DNA of 64,000 bases, from NCBI RefSeq assembly GCF_040954835.1, contig NC_090716.1, positions 12,709,275 through 12,773,274 on the forward strand. Reading direction: 5' to 3'. The notes under the pieces are model-generated. The model ran no database searches. It was given only the letters and a program-made list of their open reading frames with translations, and was not told the DNA's origin. A program made the translations under genes and the position numbers. Positions within the stretch are counted from its first letter, which is position 1; the number at the start of each line of letters is the position of its first letter. The DNA is from Lepisosteus oculatus (lineage: Eukaryota > Chordata > Actinopteri > Semionotiformes > Lepisosteidae). This document shows, piece after piece, positions 1,690-64,000 of the stretch.

Positions 1690-4600
1690 CTGAATTAAGA
1701 CATAGAGGTGTGGTGAAATGTGATGCCAACAGCACTGTAAAAATTCTATAAGTAGCACAATTACAAACTGTCTCAGAACTACTGAAAAACTTGATCTTCT
1801 GTCACACTGTCAGAATCTTATCTGTAAATCGATCAGTCATTTTAAGCAGGGACATTCTTTCCTTCAGTGTTATCGGCCTGAAACCTGAGGTATTTTTTTC
1901 CCCATTTAAAATAAAACCTAAAATCACTGTTCAGTCGCACAATAGAAGAATAAACTCACCAAGTGTTTCTTCAGCTTTGGAATCAGCTTAGATAATATCT
2001 GATCATGGTGCACCTGAAACCTCTGAAGTTTGGGAAATCCTGGGATAAAGAACCCTTTGAAGTGAGAAAACCAAGTAACGAGGATTAAAAACAAAAGATT
2101 TAGAAAACTATTATCCTTCTAAAAGTAAAACGTGATTTAGGAACATGCAAATTCAACTGTAATCCCTATAATATAAAGCAATATTAAGATATTTATTAGG
2201 GGCAACAAAACAGTCTTGGTGTCCTTGTTACTTAAGAATGAAGACATACAGTACAGTATACATACACTTGAGAAGTTCACCATTTCAAACTCTTACCATG
2301 CATTGCATGCTTCTGGTTTGTCAGCAGCTGTGACAGGGCCCAGAAGGCGTCCTCCTCGTTCATATACATCAGTAAGATGGCTGCTATCTGACTCATGCCT
2401 TGACAGTAGCTCACCTCCTGCAAACAGACACAGCTCACATCAGAGAGCCCCTCAGTGCTCTGAACTACACCTGAACAAAAACATGCTTTCCAACTGCTGG
2501 GCTATCAGTTGGTAGCAGCATTATTTATAAGAATAAAAACAACTTAAAGAATCTACTATATTAAAAACATATATCAGACAAAAAAATGAAACCTAACCTT
2601 GTTTCATCTCAATATAACCTAGACATTGTCAAGTGCCACAGTTTATTATTGTACTTATTTTTCACAAAGAAAAAAAACAGTTCTTTGATTAAGCAATGCT
2701 GTCATTCTTCACCACATTCTAAGCTAAAACTAAATAACCAAATAAAACCATTGCCCAAAGTGCAAGAGAGAGAAGTACACCGTCTCATTGTCTCAGTGAG
2801 CACCATCTCAAATATATGTTATACAATTGTATTGTAGTTGTTCTTTATTCTTTGTACTACTTATGTCCGAGAGCTAGCTAAATAGCTTTTAGTTATACCA
2901 TATACCTGTATATGAGTATAAAGACAATAAATTTGAACTTGAAACAGACACTTATATTCGCAGAAGTAAAACTGTTTTTTTTCTCCTTTAATACATTTTC
3001 TCCACACTGCTTTTCTCTGGGCAAACAATCTCTGGTTTGACCTCTATCGCCACCAGCTCAACAGGGGGCCAGTGGTGAATTTAGCCAACCCAGTCAATTC
3101 CTCCTGTTTATGTCACAGAGTGCTCATCACCCCAGGTCCCTGGCAGAAAGCGTTTGATCTGCATGTGAAATGGGTGTTCACGACCTGAGTCGACACAACA
3201 CACTGAGGTAACCGAGGGACTCTTGTTTTTACAGTTGAAGTTATTCCATGACAAAACTGCGATGGTGTGTTTTAAACTCACCGTGTTATAAACGGAGTAG
3301 GCTGCCAACACGTGGAACAGGGCCTGCTGCCTGTGAACAGAATGGTTTCGTGAACATACAGCACATCTCTGTCTCACTCCAATGAACAAGGAACATTCCC
3401 TGCTTCTGATTCATCTTGGCCCAGGGAAATACAAGCAGGGTTTATCCCTCAGAATCAGACATTAGTTAAGGGGTTGCAAAGTAACAGTTTATAAATACAT
3501 AAGCCAGTAGTTAATACTCTTCTAATGTATTATGGCTGGAACAAGTGACCTTCCTTAAATAACTATAGGATTAGGATAGGGGTATCATTTGAGATTTGTC
3601 TTAGTTACTAATGTAATGTTGGTTCTGATCATATTGTTGTTAGTAAATGAATACTTTATATATATATTCCACTAAGAAATAACATTTTCAACTCCTAATC
3701 TAAAATATTACCCAGAAACCTAATTTTGTTTTTTTCTTTATTATTCTCGATGGTAGGAATTAAAAAAAAATTGGTGTGCTAGACTCATTTAGCAATTTCA
3801 CCCATGAAATATGCTTTCTTAACCATAACCATATAAATATATCCATCTATTCTCACAGTAATGAAACAACATTGCGATTGTGTAGTTAGTCTGACACCAA
3901 TATATCTGCTTTCTATGTTTCTTTAAAATACTGGCTCAAAAGCATGTGCTGGAGGAAGAACAATAGTGCAAAGTCTGCAATAGGATTTTTGCCTATTAAC
4001 ATTCACACCCAAATACTGTTAAGAAACATTAGACTTCAGAATTTAAAAAGTAGTCTGCAAAAACATTTGCCTTTTAAAATATTAAGGATCCATTGTGGCT
4101 TTGTAAATATTTCCACTGAGCCTCCACAGCCTGGAATGTGTTTGCTTGTGAGTGACGACCGAACATTTCTGGCCTGTATTCCACACAAGCGCCTCTTAAC
4201 AAAGCTGTTGGAGTGCTTTCAAGGACTGCTATTACTGTACTGAAGAAGAAAGAAAAACTAGAGGGGAAAAGAGTAAATGACAGTTATTTCCTTTTGTGCT
4301 CGTGCTAATAACCATCTTAAAAAGAAAGCTCAACTAAGCAATTCAATTTTAGTTTAGAGGCTTAAAAGAGCTTGCCATTGTGATACTTGGCTGGGGTATT
4401 GGAATTTCAAAGGTCCAACTGGGGGTTTTGCATTTACTTATGTATCACACAAGCTCTGAAATCCTAAAATGTGCTTCCAGCTGCTAATTAAAGTGTTTTG
4501 TAATTTTCTAGTTGGGCTTGTAGACTTCTCTTGAAGGTACATGTGATCCCAAGAACATTATTACAAAGAAGGTTTGTACCAAGAATCTGGATTGTGGATT

Positions 4601-40790: not shown

Positions 40791-42980
40791 AGCGATAAAA
40801 AGCTAGAACCTGTTATTTGGTTCTTGCCTATTTTGTGAATACCAGCGTTTCACGGGTTATCTGGAAATGCTGTCGTTTCTTGCAAAAAGAAAAATAATTT
40901 TGTTTCTGAAGCCCCTCTTTTTTTTTTCCGCCCCTGCTTGGTTCTGAGTTAAACCGCTCCCCACCGCGGGCATTTGAAGTTATTAGAGTGTAACATTAAA
41001 ATTATAACGGCAAATAATGGCAGATATCCGTCTTTGTTAAAAAGACATCCTCAAGGGTGAATTCGGTTGAGGATGAGTCAAATGGTATCTACTGGTAAGA
41101 ATATAATAAAGGTTAAAAAAAGAGTAGGCCATTCACCCCACCTGGATCATCTGGTATTTAGTAGCTGATTAATCTAAGGATGTCACCCTTTTCCCTCCTT
41201 TTTTGGTGAACAGAGTCAAAATACTGACTTCCACATGGCAGTGTAGTTTGGCAGCGATGACCCAGTACCGCCAAGTTCAGAGCGTCTCCAAAAACCAATT
41301 GAGACCAGTTCTTACAGACAGTTTACATGCCTTTGGTAATTATTGGTGACGATACGCTAGTAATTACTTTCACTGGTGATCTACAGTAAGTAGAAGTTAT
41401 CAGTGAGCGGTTTACGTTCATACCGTTAGATAACTTTAAACCATTACAAAACCAGCTGCTGATTTCTGTTGAAACCAAATAAAATGTCCATCCGTTTATG
41501 TGTTTTTTTTAATCAAATAACACATTTTCACTTACTAGAAATTATAGTTAATAGTATTATTTTATTTACTCAAATAAACAAACGAGTTCTTTTTTTAAAA
41601 TGAAAACGTCTTTTAATGTCTTTTTGGAAATGAAATTTCCCTTTTTTGCCACTTTGTGCTCCGAATGGCAAACGGCCTCCAATGATTAAGGCCTCGTGTA
41701 ACGGGCAGAAGGTGAAGAAATTGAGCGATACGCCAATCCTTCCAAGCTTGTCAGATATAAGGAGACATGCAATTTTGTCTAAATTTATAATAATAAATCG
41801 TTAATAATAAACCATTTCACACCAGAAGCACTTTTGCCATTGGTAAATATCTATAGTGTGATTTTAGGATATTACTTGGGAATGCACTGTTCAAAAACGG
41901 TAAAGCCCTCAACAGAAAAAAAAAACATAAAAGGTTTAAATAATTAAAACTGTTATTCCAAAAAACTGTTATTTTTTATCATTTAACTACGTTACATTCC
42001 TATTATATTTAGTGTAAATGTTACTTTAAACGTAAAATCATTTGATTTACAGGAGAACACCACAAACCTTGGAATTATTGTCACTTTGGAAACTTTGTTT
42101 CGGTGGCGTTTAATCAGTGTATTAATGTATTGTATACTGTTTTGCTAAAATCGGACGAACTGCGTAGCAAAGAGCCTACAACCCCCCAAAGACCATGCTT
42201 AAAATCGAGTAGTTTTGTAATAACAATAGTTCATAACCGTAGCAGTTCACAAAATGGTCTCAAGCGCCATCTGGTGGTCTTTTATTTCATTTACAAAAAT
42301 ACAGTCCATTAATTGTTATGTTATCTGAACATAATATATTAATTGTATCTTTTTAATAAGGCAGGTCCAATAAAATCACATAATAGACATTTAATATTTG
42401 CTCCGTAATGTTTTCTGAGCAAATACGGTTCGGGTTTCAAACACGGTTAAGAAACAGTTTCACTCCCAAGTTCTCTCAGTCTATGAAAAGTCTGTGCCAT
42501 CTTAAAGAATCAAACACGATGACAGATATCTCACCAAAATAATTTGATGCCACAGGACTATGTGCATCTACTGTATAAAGCAGACTTTTACAAAAAACAT
42601 CAATCTGTAATTTATTTCAAAACGTCTATTGAGATGTACAGTGAATATCGACCTCGTGGGCATGACTATGTAAAAAAAATCTATTTGAATGATTATATGA
42701 TCAAGATCCTTGCCAACATTCGTTTTATCTTCATGTTTTATTAGTTTTGTAAATATAAACATATCGCGTATTTTTTTTAAAATAAAAATGAATTGAGTAT
42801 AGGGATATTTTTATTATACATTGAATAATAATTTTCTGCTGTCTAAGTCTGATTGAGACGTCACACACACGAAAAACCGCTTCCGAAGTGGAGTGATAAT
42901 TACTCTCCTATTATACTAAGGCCACGTCGGAATTATTAGGTTTCCACAGCTGCGTGAACTCTCCTGCCCTCGTGAAAATG
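40791..42980. other. Intergenic region between the TBC gene promoter and the novel secreted-protein gene
   Basis: About 2.2 kb of AT-rich DNA without recognisable genes. It holds one perfect CTCF core (42264-42277). The two flanking genes point away from each other here (head-to-head). Confidence 0.55.
42264..42277 (-). promoter_or_regulatory. CTCF core motif
   Basis: On the minus strand the sequence reads CCACCAGATGGCGC, an exact match to the CTCF core consensus CCASYAGRKGGCRS. It lies between two divergently transcribed genes, a common place for a boundary element. Binding itself is inferred. Confidence 0.6.
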
Positions 42981-42987
42981 TATAGAA
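42857..42987 (+). promoter_or_regulatory. Putative promoter of the novel secreted-protein gene
   Basis: A 7-of-8 CRE (GACGTCA, 42857-42863) and a TATA-like TATAGAA (42981-42987) lie 131-137 bases upstream of the start codon and would place a start site near 43,010. An alternative reading is that the pyrimidine-rich run ending TTCCTTCAG at about 43,040 is a splice acceptor of an upstream non-coding exon. Confidence 0.35.
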
Positions 42988-43117
42988 TTAAGCAGCACTC
43001 ACTTGTTTTTTTTTCCCCCATCTCACATGCACATTCCTTCAGCGATTTATAGAGGTCTTCAGCATAGTGTTCTTATTTCGGATCCTCAGCGTGTTTTGTT
43101 CCTCAGTTGCCAAAACA

Positions 43118-46100
43118 ATGCTGCAAGCCCAAGAAATGCTCTCGCGGTTCCTACTGGTATGGTGTTTCTTCGGCATATTGGAAGCCTTTCCCTTTCGGAC
43201 TCAAACCGATAACACTCCCTTGGAAGTTCAAGAATCGGAGGATAGCCAAAATAACTTAAACGCTAGACTGACGTCCGTTAACGTGCTTGTTCCTCAAAGA
43301 GTTGAGACTGCTTCTTGGGATTCTCGGGATCCCCAGTTTGTTAACGATATGCCAGTATTTGCAGACGTGCAATACACTTCAACAGACCTTGTTGAACAGA
43401 GAGGTTTTGGCGACCACATTGACAGTCCTAAAGAGGAAGATGGTTATTTCAGTGCATTTGATAGTTCAGATGCACATTACAAGTATAATGCCTATCCAAG
43501 ATCTATGGGCTTACAAGAGAGAAGTAATTACTTTGTTCCCAATGAATTCCATTCAGATGTCTGGCCTCCTAGATCCTCTTTGGACTTGATTGACCAAACC
43601 ACCATAGCTGAGGGTTACAAGGAGAAAGAGAACATGGGTTTCTCTGATACTGATGTCAATGTTGCATCAAGTCCTGTACTTGTTGATCATAATATGGATT
43701 TTAGTCTTTGGGACACTACTTCTATTGTAGCCAACAGGGATTCTAGTGCAAGGGGATCGTCTGAGAAAACCAAGAACGCCCCTGATGTCATGCTCTCTGA
43801 AGACCATGATGACCTGTATACCTTCACCACTACTTCTGCTCCCAGGATTGTGGAGCCCAGAGGTGAGAACACTGCTTTTGGGTCTACGCAAAAGAGCTCC
43901 AAAAGTTCTGCCGCAGCCACCTCCAAAGAATCGGCTGCCATGATGGCTTCTTCCAAAACAAAACCTCTTGAACTTTCTGCTGAAGAGTACGTCTATCTGT
44001 TTGGCCCATATGACATGGGTGGAGCTGAAGTGGTTATACCTTATTCCAAATGTGATCAAGATGCAGACTTCAACAAGTATCACTTGATCAAAAAGGAGTT
44101 GGAGCTGGGTATAAGAAAGCTGCCTCCAGGGTTGTTTAAGACCTCTTCAAGTCTTGCTGGCCAGGGCTCTCAAAGCAGTACCGCAAAACCCACCACCACT
44201 GTGAACACAGTTAAGCCTGAAACAAAGTCTAGTCCAGGTGATGACATCTCAAAGCATGACCATCTCTCACCTACTGGCACGTTAAGCCAAAATGAAGATC
44301 CGGAAGATTTCAATATACCAGGATTTAAAAGACAAGATTCTCTCTCCCCAAGCAGGAGGATAAAAATAGAATCTTCAGAAGATGCAGGTTTTGCTGATGT
44401 TTATAATTCCAATTCAGACCCTGTTTCAATGGGCGAGCAGCTTTTTGAGGATCCTGGAACTAAAGAGGGGAATGACCATGCACGAGGCCAAGCTTGGAAT
44501 GACTTGAAGTATGCAAGCATGAGCGAATCAGATTCGGTGTTTAATGAAATGGAAGTAATGCAGGAATTTGGACTGAAACACGGAAGTTCTGCATTAAACA
44601 CTGCAACTGAGGTTGACTTAAATGACCCTCGTCGCATACTTGCCGTGGAATTAGGAATGCATGTCCCTGAAGATTATGGAGACCTAGGCTTAACTGCACG
44701 GAGTAATGTTGACTACAAGGCTTCACCCAGGTTCAGTGATATTACTGCTGAAGGGCATGACCCAGGAACCAATGTGTACACCAGCTCTGATCAGGAATAT
44801 GACTCTGAAGATGGTTACTTTGACTCTTTGCCACAGAATTCAAATCTCGAGGACCACATTGGTCACAGGAGTTTCCCTTCGACCACTGGTCTTACCAATG
44901 TAATGGATAAAACCCCTAATGATTCTGATGTATTTCCTTTTCAGTTTTCCACGTCGGATGGAATGGAAAATGTTGGAGATGCTGAAATCAACTCCCGTTC
45001 AAGTGCAGATGATGGATTGAACCAATGGGGTTTTGATTCAGAGGGTCAAAGCAAAACATTGAATTTAAAAATCTCTGAAGCTATTGGCAATAAGGAAGGA
45101 TTAAGCTCTACAGAAAATGAGGACAGTTCTGTGAGGACTTCAGATGGAGATGATTATGAATGTGAGGAAGATTCAGGATCTGGTGCATCTTTGGATCATG
45201 AGACAAGTGTGCCAGACCAGTATTCTCAAGATTATGGTATAAATAAAGACCGCCAAGATTTACGAAATGAAAGACCCAGTGATGTTCGTGACACCAGTAT
45301 GGAGTTTGATAAAGACATAATGAGTGATGCGTTTGCTGAAAATCCTCCTCCTCCTCAGCCTAGAGGCTCAAATTCAAACCTAGAGGAGGAGTCTTCCAAG
45401 AGCTCTTCTATTCAAGAAGAGGGTTATAATGGCAATGAGGCTACCACTGTCGTGTCGGCATCCTTTGGTCAAGAAACTGAAAGGATGGGTTTCACTGCAG
45501 ATACCAATAAGTTTGAGATGAATGAAAATGTTTCCACTTGGACAAATGAGAAGAAGCCCATCCTTCGCTTTAAGACTCATGAGAAGTTTGAAGGTCCAGT
45601 TTCCGCAACGGGTGCTCTTGTTGGTGAGGAATCTGGTTGGGATGAAGACCACATGTCTTTGGTCATTCCAGAACCAGTACTACTAGAGTCAGATCTTGAA
45701 GCCAGTAGCACTGTGGCCAACAGCACCCCAGACCAGCATTTCATGCCCACTACGTCCGGGCATGAAAATCTCAATAAGAGATTGGATTATGAATCCATGC
45801 AGCTCCAGCGCAATGAAGAAACACATGGGGGACAAGAAGAATCTATCTCCCATGTGAATCAAGACCTCAAGTTGGCCACTGACCCTAATCCTGACTTGAA
45901 AGACATATCGGTCAATAAGAACAAGGAAAGTGCTGTAGAGAGCAGTGGCTACAGATCTGGTAGGGAGGATGATGAGGCCCCTTTCTTGGAGGATGAGAAT
46001 CCCACTGTTTCTGAACATGCCTTACGAGACAATGGAACCACAGATGATGACAAAAAAGGTGTCCTCGGCACTATTTTTAACTTGGGGGTTAATGCCAGGA

Positions 46101-46198
46101 CGTTTCACCCAAGTGGGGAAGAGAACCCTGACCGAGGTGTCAAGTTCCCTATATCCCAAGATGCTGGTTTGGCCAATGTACAAAGCCATTCAGACTGA
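43118..46198 (+). CDS. Novel single-exon gene: large acidic secreted protein, 1,026 residues, family unknown
   Basis: Uninterrupted 3,081-nt frame. I start at ATG 43118, the first ATG (A at -3); a second in-frame ATG is at 43136. Residues 1-23 are a signal peptide with a hydrophobic core (FLLVWCFFGIL) and likely cleavage LEA|FPFR. The rest has no membrane segment and looks disordered: rich in Ser, Asp, Glu, Asn and Thr, with many SxE/SD-type sites suited to secretory-pathway casein kinase (Fam20C). It has only two mature cysteines (312, 682), sparse N-glycosylation sequons (NDS, NVS, NST, NGT) and dibasic sites at 404-405 and 413-414. The motif EDGYF occurs twice (near 107-111 and 564-568). 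A more ordered hydrophobic block lies near 287-345 (EEYVYLFGPYDMGGAEVVIP). The style recalls mineral-matrix or egg-envelope proteins, but SCPP genes split the signal peptide from the body by introns, and here one exon holds all. No function is assigned. Confidence 0.85.
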   Translation: MLQAQEMLSRFLLVWCFFGILEAFPFRTQTDNTPLEVQESEDSQNNLNARLTSVNVLVPQRVETASWDSRDPQFVNDMPVFADVQYTSTDLVEQRGFGDHIDSPKEEDGYFSAFDSSDAHYKYNAYPRSMGLQERSNYFVPNEFHSDVWPPRSSLDLIDQTTIAEGYKEKENMGFSDTDVNVASSPVLVDHNMDFSLWDTTSIVANRDSSARGSSEKTKNAPDVMLSEDHDDLYTFTTTSAPRIVEPRGENTAFGSTQKSSKSSAAATSKESAAMMASSKTKPLELSAEEYVYLFGPYDMGGAEVVIPYSKCDQDADFNKYHLIKKELELGIRKLPPGLFKTSSSLAGQGSQSSTAKPTTTVNTVKPETKSSPGDDISKHDHLSPTGTLSQNEDPEDFNIPGFKRQDSLSPSRRIKIESSEDAGFADVYNSNSDPVSMGEQLFEDPGTKEGNDHARGQAWNDLKYASMSESDSVFNEMEVMQEFGLKHGSSALNTATEVDLNDPRRILAVELGMHVPEDYGDLGLTARSNVDYKASPRFSDITAEGHDPGTNVYTSSDQEYDSEDGYFDSLPQNSNLEDHIGHRSFPSTTGLTNVMDKTPNDSDVFPFQFSTSDGMENVGDAEINSRSSADDGLNQWGFDSEGQSKTLNLKISEAIGNKEGLSSTENEDSSVRTSDGDDYECEEDSGSGASLDHETSVPDQYSQDYGINKDRQDLRNERPSDVRDTSMEFDKDIMSDAFAENPPPPQPRGSNSNLEEESSKSSSIQEEGYNGNEATTVVSASFGQETERMGFTADTNKFEMNENVSTWTNEKKPILRFKTHEKFEGPVSATGALVGEESGWDEDHMSLVIPEPVLLESDLEASSTVANSTPDQHFMPTTSGHENLNKRLDYESMQLQRNEETHGGQEESISHVNQDLKLATDPNPDLKDISVNKNKESAVESSGYRSGREDDEAPFLEDENPTVSEHALRDNGTTDDDKKGVLGTIFNLGVNARTFHPSGEENPDRGVKFPISQDAGLANVQSHSD

Positions 46199-46226
46199 AT
46201 ACTTTCCAGGCTTCTTCACACATCAG

Positions 46227-46303
46227 GTAGGGGTTGCTTCTTAATTTCTTCACTTGATTGAATCCTAGGGCTTGTCTTCCCCCCCCCCCCCCCCCCCCCC
46301 CAG
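46227..46303 (+). other. Possible 77-nt intron in the 3' UTR, with a C23 tract as pyrimidine run
   Basis: CATCAG|GTAGGG at 46227 looks like a donor. A run of 23 C (46279-46301) followed by AG (46302-46303) looks like an acceptor, with TTGATTGA as a possible branch region. The donor is 28 nt after the stop codon, close enough to avoid nonsense-mediated decay. Speculative. Confidence 0.25.
46279..46301 (+). repeat. Poly(C) tract, 23 C
   Basis: Uninterrupted run of C in the 3' UTR of the novel gene; its exact length may be affected by sequencing. Confidence 0.9.
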
Positions 46304-46585
46304 TTATTATTTTTGTTTAAATTAAAACCTTCTGTAACTTTTCAGGTTCCTTTTTCATGAAGCATTATTTCAGTTCTTTGTATGTATATTTTGATATCTT
46401 AGTTTCCTGAGTTAGCTTTGTTTAACATGGAAAGGAACAATCATTTATAATGAAGGGCATGTGGTTACATGGATCTTTTATTTTTCCAGACCCTGCTGTC
46501 TTCCAGAGCCCTGCTGATGGTATTGCAATGTATGATTCATCCAGTTGGGTCAACCTTTGATCCTCTTGTAAGATTGTAGAGCAAT

Positions 46586-46610
46586 AATAAAACTGGGGAA
46601 ATCCTCAACA
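46586..46610 (+). terminator. Poly(A) signal of the novel secreted-protein gene
   Basis: AATAAA at 46586-46591, followed about 20 bases later by a GT-rich stretch (GTGTCTCTGTTCTTTC), a standard cleavage arrangement. It gives a 3' UTR of about 410 nt. Confidence 0.75.
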
Positions 46611-60731: not shown

Positions 60732-63578
60732 GTAAGAATTTGACACTTTCGCCGACCCAAAAGCAAATGATTGGACCTGCATCCTTTTCCACGCCAAAAC
60801 GGAATTAAATAACTAATTATTCTGGGTGTTATATTTACTTAGTGTTTCTAAGAAAGTAGCTGGTTTGTTAATCTCACTGTGCGTTAAGGCAGTTTTCTTC
60901 AAGTTTAGGCTTTCTATATAGTACTCTGTACTATATTAATGCTCTATACTAAAGTACTCAATACTGGGGCAAAGGGGACGTCTGGAATGTTAGTGTGTGC
61001 GCTATATATGATAGGTATCATCAAAGCTTTTAATTATTAATTGCATTTTGGAAAGTGATATTTTACAGATTATAATACATTTGGCTTGTAGAACGGATTC
61101 GTTCAACGATTAATTTGGCGTGTTTAACTTTCCAGCCCACCACATTTAATGTAAGGAACTCTGGTCATGAATTTCTAACCTACTGTATGTGTTGGTTCAA
61201 TGTGACTATTGTGTGCGCAACTATGTGATATGACCAAAGCTCAGCGTGTAAAGCAGATACTGTACAGTAGCTCCGTGCAGTCCATCCTAGCTTCTTAGAA
61301 ACGGCTCTGAGACTTGTGAAATGTGTGCAAGTCGCACAGTTCGCGGTAGGATTGTGCGGTCCCGCTTAAGCCTCGCAGGTGAGTGCTGTCGCTCGGCTTT
61401 GAATGTGCAGGGTACTGAACTGCACCCCCCGACTCCCCCCGCTCCCCGCGCTTGGTTCCTAACTCTCAGCGTGCGTGAGTATTTCGGTGTTTGTCTCAAA
61501 GTCTCCCAAGTTCGTGGGCAGGCGGCAGAGCCTGATAGAAGATGCGAGGAAAGAGCGAGAAGCCGCCGCAACCGCCGCCGCGGAGTCGTCGGACTCCGGC
61601 GACCAAATCGTGTTCGAGGAAGAGGATGGCAAAGCCATGCTGAACTTGTTCTTCACCCTCAGGAATTCCAAAATTCCCGCCTTGTCCCGCGCATTGAAGG
61701 TTTTCGAGGTAAGAACAAGAAGTCACCCGTAATCTAAATACAGCTGGGGTTATCTTTCTCACGAATATCTCCAGTGTATATGCGTTTATTTTGAATACAG
61801 CATACAGCATGTGCGCATGTCTTACACAGAAACATGACAATGCAGTTGTGCCCTTTTTTTGTGTGTGTGTGTGAGGTTAAGATGAAAATTCAACAGATCG
61901 GGTGCACTGCAATCTTTTTTGTTTCGGCAACACCTCGTTATGTGTGCAAATCAATAACATTCTGAAAACCTAAGGAACTTTCCGAGTACATTCTGAAACC
62001 CGACGAAGTATAGATCTTTTTAAAAAAATTGCAAAGGCACCTGTGCAGCTGTGTTACGCTCGTTTTAATTTTTATTGAATAAAACGTAAACGACTATTGT
62101 CTGTCGCTTTGTGTTTCGTTACAAATCATTTCGCGGTTACATTTAGACTGACCCTTTTGCTATATCTCGAAGGACGGTTGTTTAAATGCTGTAAGTTAGA
62201 ATGTTATGGACATAATTGTTACACTTGCTTATGCTGTACAAGACGAAATCGTGTTAATTCGATGGTGTTGATCAAAATTATTGCAACGAAGATTTTAAAT
62301 GTTGGAAACGCCAAGAAACATTTGACGGAACTGATCCAACTTCAATGCACCGAGGAAGTAAATAATAAGAAGAATGGGGGATAAAAATATTCCTCTTACA
62401 GAGATGGAAAGATTAATGCTGCTCTTTTCTTTATCTAATTTTTATCCTCTCCAGGTGTACAGGGTATAAAACTAGACAATGGAATAATAGCATTTCTATG
62501 TTAAAACCGTTGCTTCGGGGAATGTTTCGCAGACAGCCATGGATCAGATGTTGTTACCATTCAGTTAATTCAATCTATACTGTCAAATTATTACAAATAA
62601 ATCAATTTTCCTGTCCCACAGAGCAAGAAGTGGTGTTGGAATAAATTAGAACATGGGCTAAATTGAATTAAAACTTGAAACTGCGTTTTTTCTTCTGCTT
62701 TTTAAGGGAAGTGAAACAAAACGTCTGTACTTCCACGTTTGCTTGAAAGCATTGTTCGACTGTTTATTAGCTTCTGGATTAAATGTGTGCTCATTTAAAA
62801 GTATTATAAACTGCAGAAATATTTGTTTAGGATGCGTTTTGTAGCGAAATGCATTGTTTGTCCTGTATGTGCGGCAAATCAGAAAATGTATTTAACCTTT
62901 TCAATATATAAAGTACTTTGAACTGTCAATTGCAAACTCACATAAGAAATCAGTGCGATGTTATTATTATTTTTTATATGTGTGTGAATTTATCTGAACC
63001 AGAGGCGCATCTTCACTTTTAAATGAAGTTTCAGCACCACGGAGAGCGCAGAGGGCAAGATGTTGCCATTGACATTTGATGTTGATCAAAAACAACAAAC
63101 GCACATGCTCATTTGCCTTTGGAAAAATACCTGTTATCAAGTATCACAGCACATACTTCCATCAGGTTTTAATCTGAGAAAATCCCTTTCAGTCTCGACT
63201 GTGCGCGTTATTTAAAACGATGTATACGTGAACATTGTTTTTCTCATAAGAATATGTAATATTTAACAAAATATACAAAAGAAAACATATAAACAATGAG
63301 GGTTAAGATGCATCTAAACAAATAAATCACTCTGGGATCTCTCCCTCGCTGCTTCTGTATTGCTCAGCAGTTATTATCTAGTCTCCTTTTTTTTGTGTGA
63401 CAGACGTTCGAAGCAAAAATTCATCACCTCGAGACCAGACCCAGCAGAAAACCTAAAGACGCTCTGGGAGAGCTGGAATACTTTGTCCGCTGCGAGGTGC
63501 ACCTGTCAGACCTCAGCACGCTCATCAGCTCCGTAAAAAGGATATCGGAAGAGGTCAGAACAACCAAAGAGGAGAAAT
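60642..63578 (+). CDS. TH: Tyrosine hydroxylase (tyrosine 3-monooxygenase), first three coding exons; gene continues right of window
   Basis: Rate-limiting enzyme of catecholamine synthesis; cytosolic, uses Fe(II), O2 and tetrahydrobiopterin to make L-DOPA. Exons 60642-60731, 61502-61708 and 63404-63578 join in frame (157 codons plus one base). Together they encode the whole N-terminal regulatory region and most of the ACT-like domain. Regulatory serines fall exactly at Ser19 (RRAAS), Ser31 (SPKF) and Ser40 (RRQS, PKA site). The alanine-rich stretch and [22 protein letters not shown] and LEYFVR blocks are diagnostic for TH and separate it from PAH and TPH. The sequence is of the fish th1 type. 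The catalytic domain (PWFPRK onward, with the iron ligands) lies beyond the window. Confidence 0.97.
60732..61501 (+). other. TH intron 1
   Basis: 770 bases between verified splice sites. GC content rises toward exon 2. Contains the 12-bp palindrome TACTGTACAGTA at 61258-61269; nothing else recognised. Confidence 0.9.
61502..61708 (+). CDS. TH: TH coding exon 2
   Basis: 69 codons, acceptor TGTCTCAAAG, donor GAG|GTAAGA. Opens [20 protein letters not shown] (Ser31, Ser40), then poly-Ala and the start of the ACT-like domain. Confidence 0.97.
61709..63403 (+). other. TH intron 2
   Basis: About 1.7 kb between verified splice sites, with a short TG run near 61,860 and the RE1/NRSE site listed separately. 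No exon seen. Confidence 0.9.
63030..63050 (+). promoter_or_regulatory. TH: RE1/NRSE (REST/NRSF binding site) in TH intron 2
   Basis: The left half TTCAGCACC is exact, the two-base spacer AC is as in the consensus, and the right half GGAGAGCGCA differs from GGACAGCGCC at two positions: 19 of 21 overall. REST silences neuronal genes in non-neuronal cells through such sites, and TH is a neuron/chromaffin gene, so the context fits. Confidence 0.8.
63404..63578 (+). CDS. TH: TH coding exon 3
   Basis: Acceptor GTGTGACAG, opens [13 protein letters not shown] and continues [20 protein letters not shown]. The likely donor is AAAT|GTGAGA, leaving phase 1 (a T that could begin Phe before PWFP or HWFP in the next exon). 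Confidence 0.93.
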
Positions 63579-64000
63579 GTGAGAAGCCTTTTCTCTTCCG
63601 TGACACTGAAAGCTATGAATACAGTACTGTATACAATATGTTACCAACCCCAGGGACTTGGAACATAGTAAAAAACAATCTTTTTACAGGAAGAGTCCCA
63701 GGAAAACAGACAAACAGACAGTTGATGTAACATACAAAACAAGACCTCTTTTGTTTACAATATTTATTCTACTGATCCTCCTCGAATCAAAACAAATCCA
63801 CAACAAAGCCTAGCTTCTCTTTGAGCTTCTTGATAACTCACTTCAGGTCCCTCTCTACCAATATCACTGGGAAGCTAAGCTGCTTCCCAGCTTCAACTCA
63901 AATCTTTTCCCTGACTTAAGAACTCAACATCATAAAGAATCTCCAGGTCTACTCAGGATGTTTCAGCTTCCCAAGGAGGATCTGACATCACCTAGACCCC
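63579..64000 (+). other. TH intron 3, beginning
   Basis: Includes the palindrome ATACAGTACTGTAT (63619-63632) and a 9-bp-stem hairpin CTGGGAAGC/GCTTCCCAG (63867-63890). No further exon before the edge. Confidence 0.8.

Follow-up and report, generated by a model that had tools for sequence, protein, structure and literature searches.

The window analysed here, a 64-kb stretch of spotted gar DNA, contains at 43118-46198 a genuine, intact protein-coding gene. Its product is identical across all 1026 residues to an nr entry, "PREDICTED: uncharacterized protein LOC107075772 [Lepisosteus oculatus]", and the gene, which the initial annotation had presented as unrecognised, is thus already catalogued by NCBI (LOC107075772); it is uncharacterised, and its family is unrecognised. 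The recognised neighbours of LOC107075772 are a USP6NL-like gene and TH, of which the latter, named earlier as the adjacent gene, was confirmed about 15 kb downstream. The features of the locus are:

1927-2118, minus strand: second TBC-domain stretch of the USP6NL-like gene (below the Pfam cut-off)
2280-2501, minus strand: partial TBC domain of the USP6NL-like gene (Pfam E 6.5e-13; best PDB match USP6NL, E 3e-16)
43118-46198, plus strand: CDS of the 1026-aa protein (NCBI LOC107075772), with the stop codon (frame, nr identity, periodicity)
46227-46489, plus strand: possible 3'-UTR intron, CAG/GTAGGG at 46226/46227, acceptor-like ends at 46345 or 46489 (splice-site scores)
46586-46591, plus strand: AATAAA poly(A) signal, 388 nt past the stop (sequence reading)
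61463-61729, open stretch: start of TH (profile/sequence match)
63401-63727, open stretch: next exon of TH (profile/sequence match)

Coding frame and exon structure

The frame runs from an ATG at 43118 to a TGA at 46196-46198, with 1026 uninterrupted codons in between. Upstream of the ATG it is stop-free back to 42992, without any earlier in-frame ATG, and the full stop-free run of 1068 codons beginning there compares with 182 codons for the second-longest run in the 64-kb window. In 60 Markov-1 simulations of 64 kb each, matched to the frame's own composition, the longest random frame had 253 codons. The period-3 signal was 5.4-12.4 inside the frame (8 windows of 600 bases, with starts from 43201 to 45301), as compared to 2.9 for the 95th percentile across all windows; away from the surroundings of the frame the highest value was 3.9. 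A codon score spanning 1020 of the frame's codons was trained partly on the frame itself, and is therefore circular and descriptive only. We conclude that the frame is coding from its length relative to the simulations and from its 3-base periodicity, in agreement with the earlier statement that a frame this long is not due to chance. The base at -3 of the start codon is an A, and both this purine and the poly(A) signal, placed previously about 390 nt past the stop, were recovered as described. That no homologues were found might be taken to indicate a chance frame, a pseudogene or an annotation artefact, but against 1068 stop-free codons, at most 253 in simulation and a strong periodicity, the probability of this is close to negligible.

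The same protein occurs in what look like two assemblies, which suggests that the frame is intact in both. A spotted gar assembly of 945 Mb is described in PMC10320754. LOC107075772 is not named in the literature searched, and the portions of PMC6591164 and PMC4992253 that were available contain nothing on this gene.

The gene was initially described as having a single exon. For the coding sequence this is likely, all 1026 codons being contained in one continuous frame, but for the transcript it is less certain, as splice-like signals would allow an intron in the 3' UTR, which is plausible. A donor-like GT lies at 46227, separated from the stop by 28 nt, and acceptor-like sites follow that end at 46345 and 46489. 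Splice-site scores were calculated with a hand-written matrix and serve as a rough guide; in a check on TH, the matrix gave 6.4 at the one exon end used (61709) and only 2.2 at the site at 63554. The scoring also identified a donor-like GAG/GTGAGA at 43863 and several acceptor-like sites within the frame, and an acceptor-like site ending at 43089, upstream of the ATG. These sites, together with the frame being open upstream to 42992, would fit a frame that is a large exon of a multi-exon gene with missed coding exons, or that is partly spliced out in some transcripts. We consider both arrangements very unlikely: a signal-like segment comes directly after the first in-frame ATG, the stop comes before the downstream donor, the NCBI protein model is likewise of 1026 aa, and the period-3 signal is present in all 8 windows examined along the frame.

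Properties and relatives of the protein

The protein contains 126 Ser, 97 Asp, 92 Glu and 3 Cys among its 1026 residues, with one of the cysteines located in the putative signal peptide. Residues 23-1026 have a pI of 4.4, a charge of about -100 and a mass of 110.6 kDa, and the earlier description of an acidic protein with few cysteines is therefore accurate. The features discussed below are:

43118-43186, plus strand: putative signal peptide, residues 1-23, with inferred cleavage between EA and FP (sequence by eye and hydropathy)
43436-43450, plus strand: first EDGYF motif, residues 107-111 (sequence reading)
43964-44152, plus strand: residues 283-345, including Cys312, within the longest fold-prone stretch, 243-353 (positive charge-hydropathy windows)
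44807-44821, plus strand: second EDGYF motif, residues 564-568 (sequence reading)
45173-45184, plus strand: SGSG in acidic context, residues 686-689, a possible glycosaminoglycan attachment site (sequence; P 0.08 against shuffles)

The signal peptide proposed in the initial annotation is supported, as judged by eye and by hydropathy, by an N-terminal hydrophobic segment with a mean of 1.6 over residues 8-26. From residue 26 onward the best 19-residue mean is 0.73, and the hydropathy scan gave no later segment sufficiently hydrophobic for a membrane anchor. The LOC107075772 protein is thus probably secreted. With a charge-hydropathy value of -0.136, the mature chain falls on the disordered side of the boundary, and it is a reasonable inference that the protein is largely intrinsically disordered. 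It does not appear to be uniformly so, since five stretches of windows score as fold-prone (residues 43-93, 243-353, 463-543, 813-863 and 973-1023). A single-sequence structure model of residues 275-351 was poor (mean pLDDT 48.7) and too weak for a fold search; this low confidence is no evidence of disorder.

We compared motif counts with 2000 composition-preserving shuffles; as 15 features were tested, a P-value near 0.04 means little. The S/T-x-x-D/E motif was found 48 times, as compared to 35.7 expected (P 0.007), while S-x-E was found 7 times, with 11.2 expected (P 0.09 for a count this low), and S-x-E/D 21 times against 23.4. The protein may thus have the phosphorylatable acidic body proposed earlier, although S-x-E does not bear out a Fam20C argument. 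N-x-S/T motifs were fewer than expected (4, with 11.3 expected; P 0.011 for a count this low), and acidic tyrosines were close to expectation (3 against 2.5). Two features chosen after looking, G-[YF] (11 against 4.4, P 0.003) and G-Y (5 against 1.7, P 0.02), were in excess. Repeated 5-mers, EDGYF included, numbered 3 against 0.6 expected (P 0.04, with 15 features tested).

The two far-apart copies of EDGYF reported earlier are present, and a self-match of the protein gave no significant longer repeat around them. The best ungapped self-match scores 47; 60 block shuffles averaged 43.4 and reached 55 at most, and a repeat architecture is thus unsupported. A match of EDGYF and SDV[WF] at a common spacing (offset 457) was dropped, with a best segment score of only 31.

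Searches of Pfam (with the whole protein and six pieces), NCBIfam and PDB gave no family above the cut-off, in keeping with the earlier statement that none was recognised; the stray matches below it were a calcitonin profile (E 0.15) and an EsaG chain (E 0.49). The whole protein was searched against 5.8 billion proteins, and among the 7987 candidates that were scored, a subset of all candidates, only the protein itself was found at E <= 10. A query of residues 280-345, covering the segment around residues 287-345 where homologues had been thought most worth seeking, returned only itself among 15 candidates from the same collection, and a shorter query of residues 283-605, aimed at relatives of about 180-565 aa, returned no relative among 1451 candidates. 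Candidates had to share 5-residue words with the query and fall within a length range, and fast-evolving relatives may be missed because of the first of these requirements; proteins of bowfin, sturgeon, bichir and other gars may be absent from the collection. No paralogue was recovered from the gar assembly of 1.2 Gb in 813 contigs, where the only candidate scored for each of two queries (the whole protein and residues 280-346) was the protein itself. Viral contigs gave no match to the protein. In genome contigs there were 4 pattern matches, of which the one kept is a Bacteroidales stretch with 29% identity over residues 16-96 and an E-value of 1e-4 that takes only the candidate stretches as reference; it was judged to be a chance match and rejected as a relative.

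Most likely, to judge from these searches, the protein is taxon-restricted or evolves too fast for relatives to be recognised. Medaka Starmaker-like counts as a putative homologue of zebrafish Starmaker in spite of having no sequence similarity to it (PMC4260845), and a lack of match therefore does not prove the lack of an orthologue.

Candidate functions

The functional readings are weakly separated, with an extracellular polyanion the best of several and a proteoglycan core second. Tentatively, and with somewhat less than even confidence, we favour a fast-evolving or taxon-restricted, secreted and largely disordered polyanion with calcium or basic matrix as its extracellular ligand. The N-terminal signal would direct secretion, and outside the cell the polyanionic chain of about 110 kDa would bind calcium and basic matrix or mineral surfaces, with phosphorylation of the acidic S/T-x-x-D/E sites tuning the binding and the G-Y/F spots acting as contact points. 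The coding evidence, the composition (pI 4.4, charge about -100, charge-hydropathy -0.136) and the excess of S/T-x-x-D/E and G-[YF] argue for such a polyanion. Against it, acidic runs of at least 5 and Ser runs of at least 4 are absent from the 1026 residues, and S-x-E is not enriched. The strongest mineral binders carry acidic and serine blocks, and the gar protein is thus without them.

Like Starmaker and Starmaker-like of the fish otolith matrix, as described in PMC4260845, the LOC107075772 protein is putatively secreted, very acidic and, by charge-hydropathy, disordered, with a mature mass about 1.7 times that of Starmaker (110.6 kDa against 64.0 kDa). The medaka protein Starmaker-like, itself acidic and disordered, is reported to have an effect on calcium carbonate crystals in vitro (PMC4260845). 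The comparison was made by description. A pI of 4.4, a charge-hydropathy value of -0.136 and a hydrophobic N-terminal segment give the gar protein a composition of the Starmaker type, a likeness in kind and not in descent, and its mode of action would be that of disordered acidic proteins of the matrix, Starmaker-like among them, without established kinship.

That the protein is a secreted proteoglycan core of the chondroitin or heparan sulfate type, with the glycosaminoglycan attached at the acidic CEEDSGSGASLD site and the disordered body serving as a spacer, is unlikely, though to be reckoned with. One SGxG with at least 2 acidic residues just upstream was found where 0.08 are expected by shuffle (P 0.08), and it directly follows an acidic tyrosine stretch, GDDYEC. 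Such an acidic SGSG site would be a likeness to secreted or part-time proteoglycans, but unlike these the gar protein has only one in its 1026 residues, and no Pfam domain. Moreover, neither SG dipeptides (7, with 8.2 expected) nor acidic SG sites (3, with 1.3 expected, P 0.13) depart from chance level.

A reproductive or integument-specific protein, from the egg envelope, the seminal fluid or the scale or ganoin matrix, would explain fast evolution. Rapidly evolving tissue-specific secreted proteins are expected to show no relatives, as was the case in our protein searches, but neither a zona pellucida domain nor any other Pfam domain is present, and we regard this origin as quite unlikely.

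It is also doubtful that the protein is a granin-like secretory-granule protein or prohormone that is cut into peptides at dibasic sites. The granins SCG2 and VGF have their coding sequence in one exon, and the gar protein probably resembles them in this respect, as well as in being acidic and soluble with a putative signal peptide. The dibasic sites on which the initial annotation based its granin argument do not sustain it: there are 8 pairs, FKRQ and NKRL included, as compared to 7.1 expected from the shuffles (P 0.43), and 4 K/R-R against 3.2. Unlike in granins, these sites are thus at chance level, and neither the whole protein nor the six pieces matched a granin profile in Pfam.

Like DMP1, DSPP and MEPE of the SCPP family, the protein is acidic, putatively secreted and rich in Ser and Asp. 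SCPP genes have the signal peptide and the body on separate exons, whereas in gar a single unbroken genomic frame, the translation of which equals the NCBI model, holds both the signal-like segment and the body. The gar protein further differs from SCPP proteins and Fam20C substrates in that S-x-E is not enriched (7 against 11.2 expected), and the gene differs from SCPP genes in its recognised neighbours, the USP6NL-like gene and TH. The granin and SCPP ideas are both weakened, since dibasic sites are at chance and S-x-E is not enriched.

We consider it improbable that the gene is confined to gars or holosteans, arose or was radically reshaped next to TH, and encodes a very large, acidic, secreted polyanion that supplies lineage-specific matrix (scale ganoin, otolith, egg coat) outside the SCPP family. 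LOC107075772 is a true but ordinary orphan gene. In gar, whose genome evolves slowly, long intact genes for which no relatives are detected make good test cases for the origins of orphan secreted proteins. Should the protein turn out to belong to a matrix or an egg coat, it would become a candidate in gar-specific hard-tissue or reproductive biology; for now, the gene adds to the list of uncharacterised orphans.

Surrounding sequence

Upstream of the start codon, a CRE-like octamer, GACGTCAC, at 42857-42864 (plus strand) and a box, TATAGAAT, at 42981-42988 (plus strand) were noted by eye, and may point to a promoter near the frame. Scans of the 64-kb window for bacterial-type promoters, Rfam families and tRNAs gave nothing useful. 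A run of 23 consecutive C is located at 46279-46301 (plus strand), in the presumed 3' UTR or 3'-UTR intron and upstream of the candidate acceptors. No other gene was recognised by eye at 46.1-48.3 kb (open stretches of at least 58 codons) or from there to TH (at least 48 codons).

Just left of the window there is a long open frame, L009:6732-8276 (minus strand), which has no Pfam match and may be the C-terminal exon of the USP6NL-like gene. Other gene-like stretches upstream of the window, on the USP6NL side, are L010:6500-6637, L011:8505-8720, L014:945-1118 and L015:8572-8772. They match best the structure of ubiquitin-conjugating enzyme E2 variant 3, which we take to be UEVLD, as well as an SPT2 domain and immunoglobulin domains, presumably from SPTY2D1 and IGSF22, respectively. 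Gar TH presumably sits near genes that in human are located in 11p15.1.
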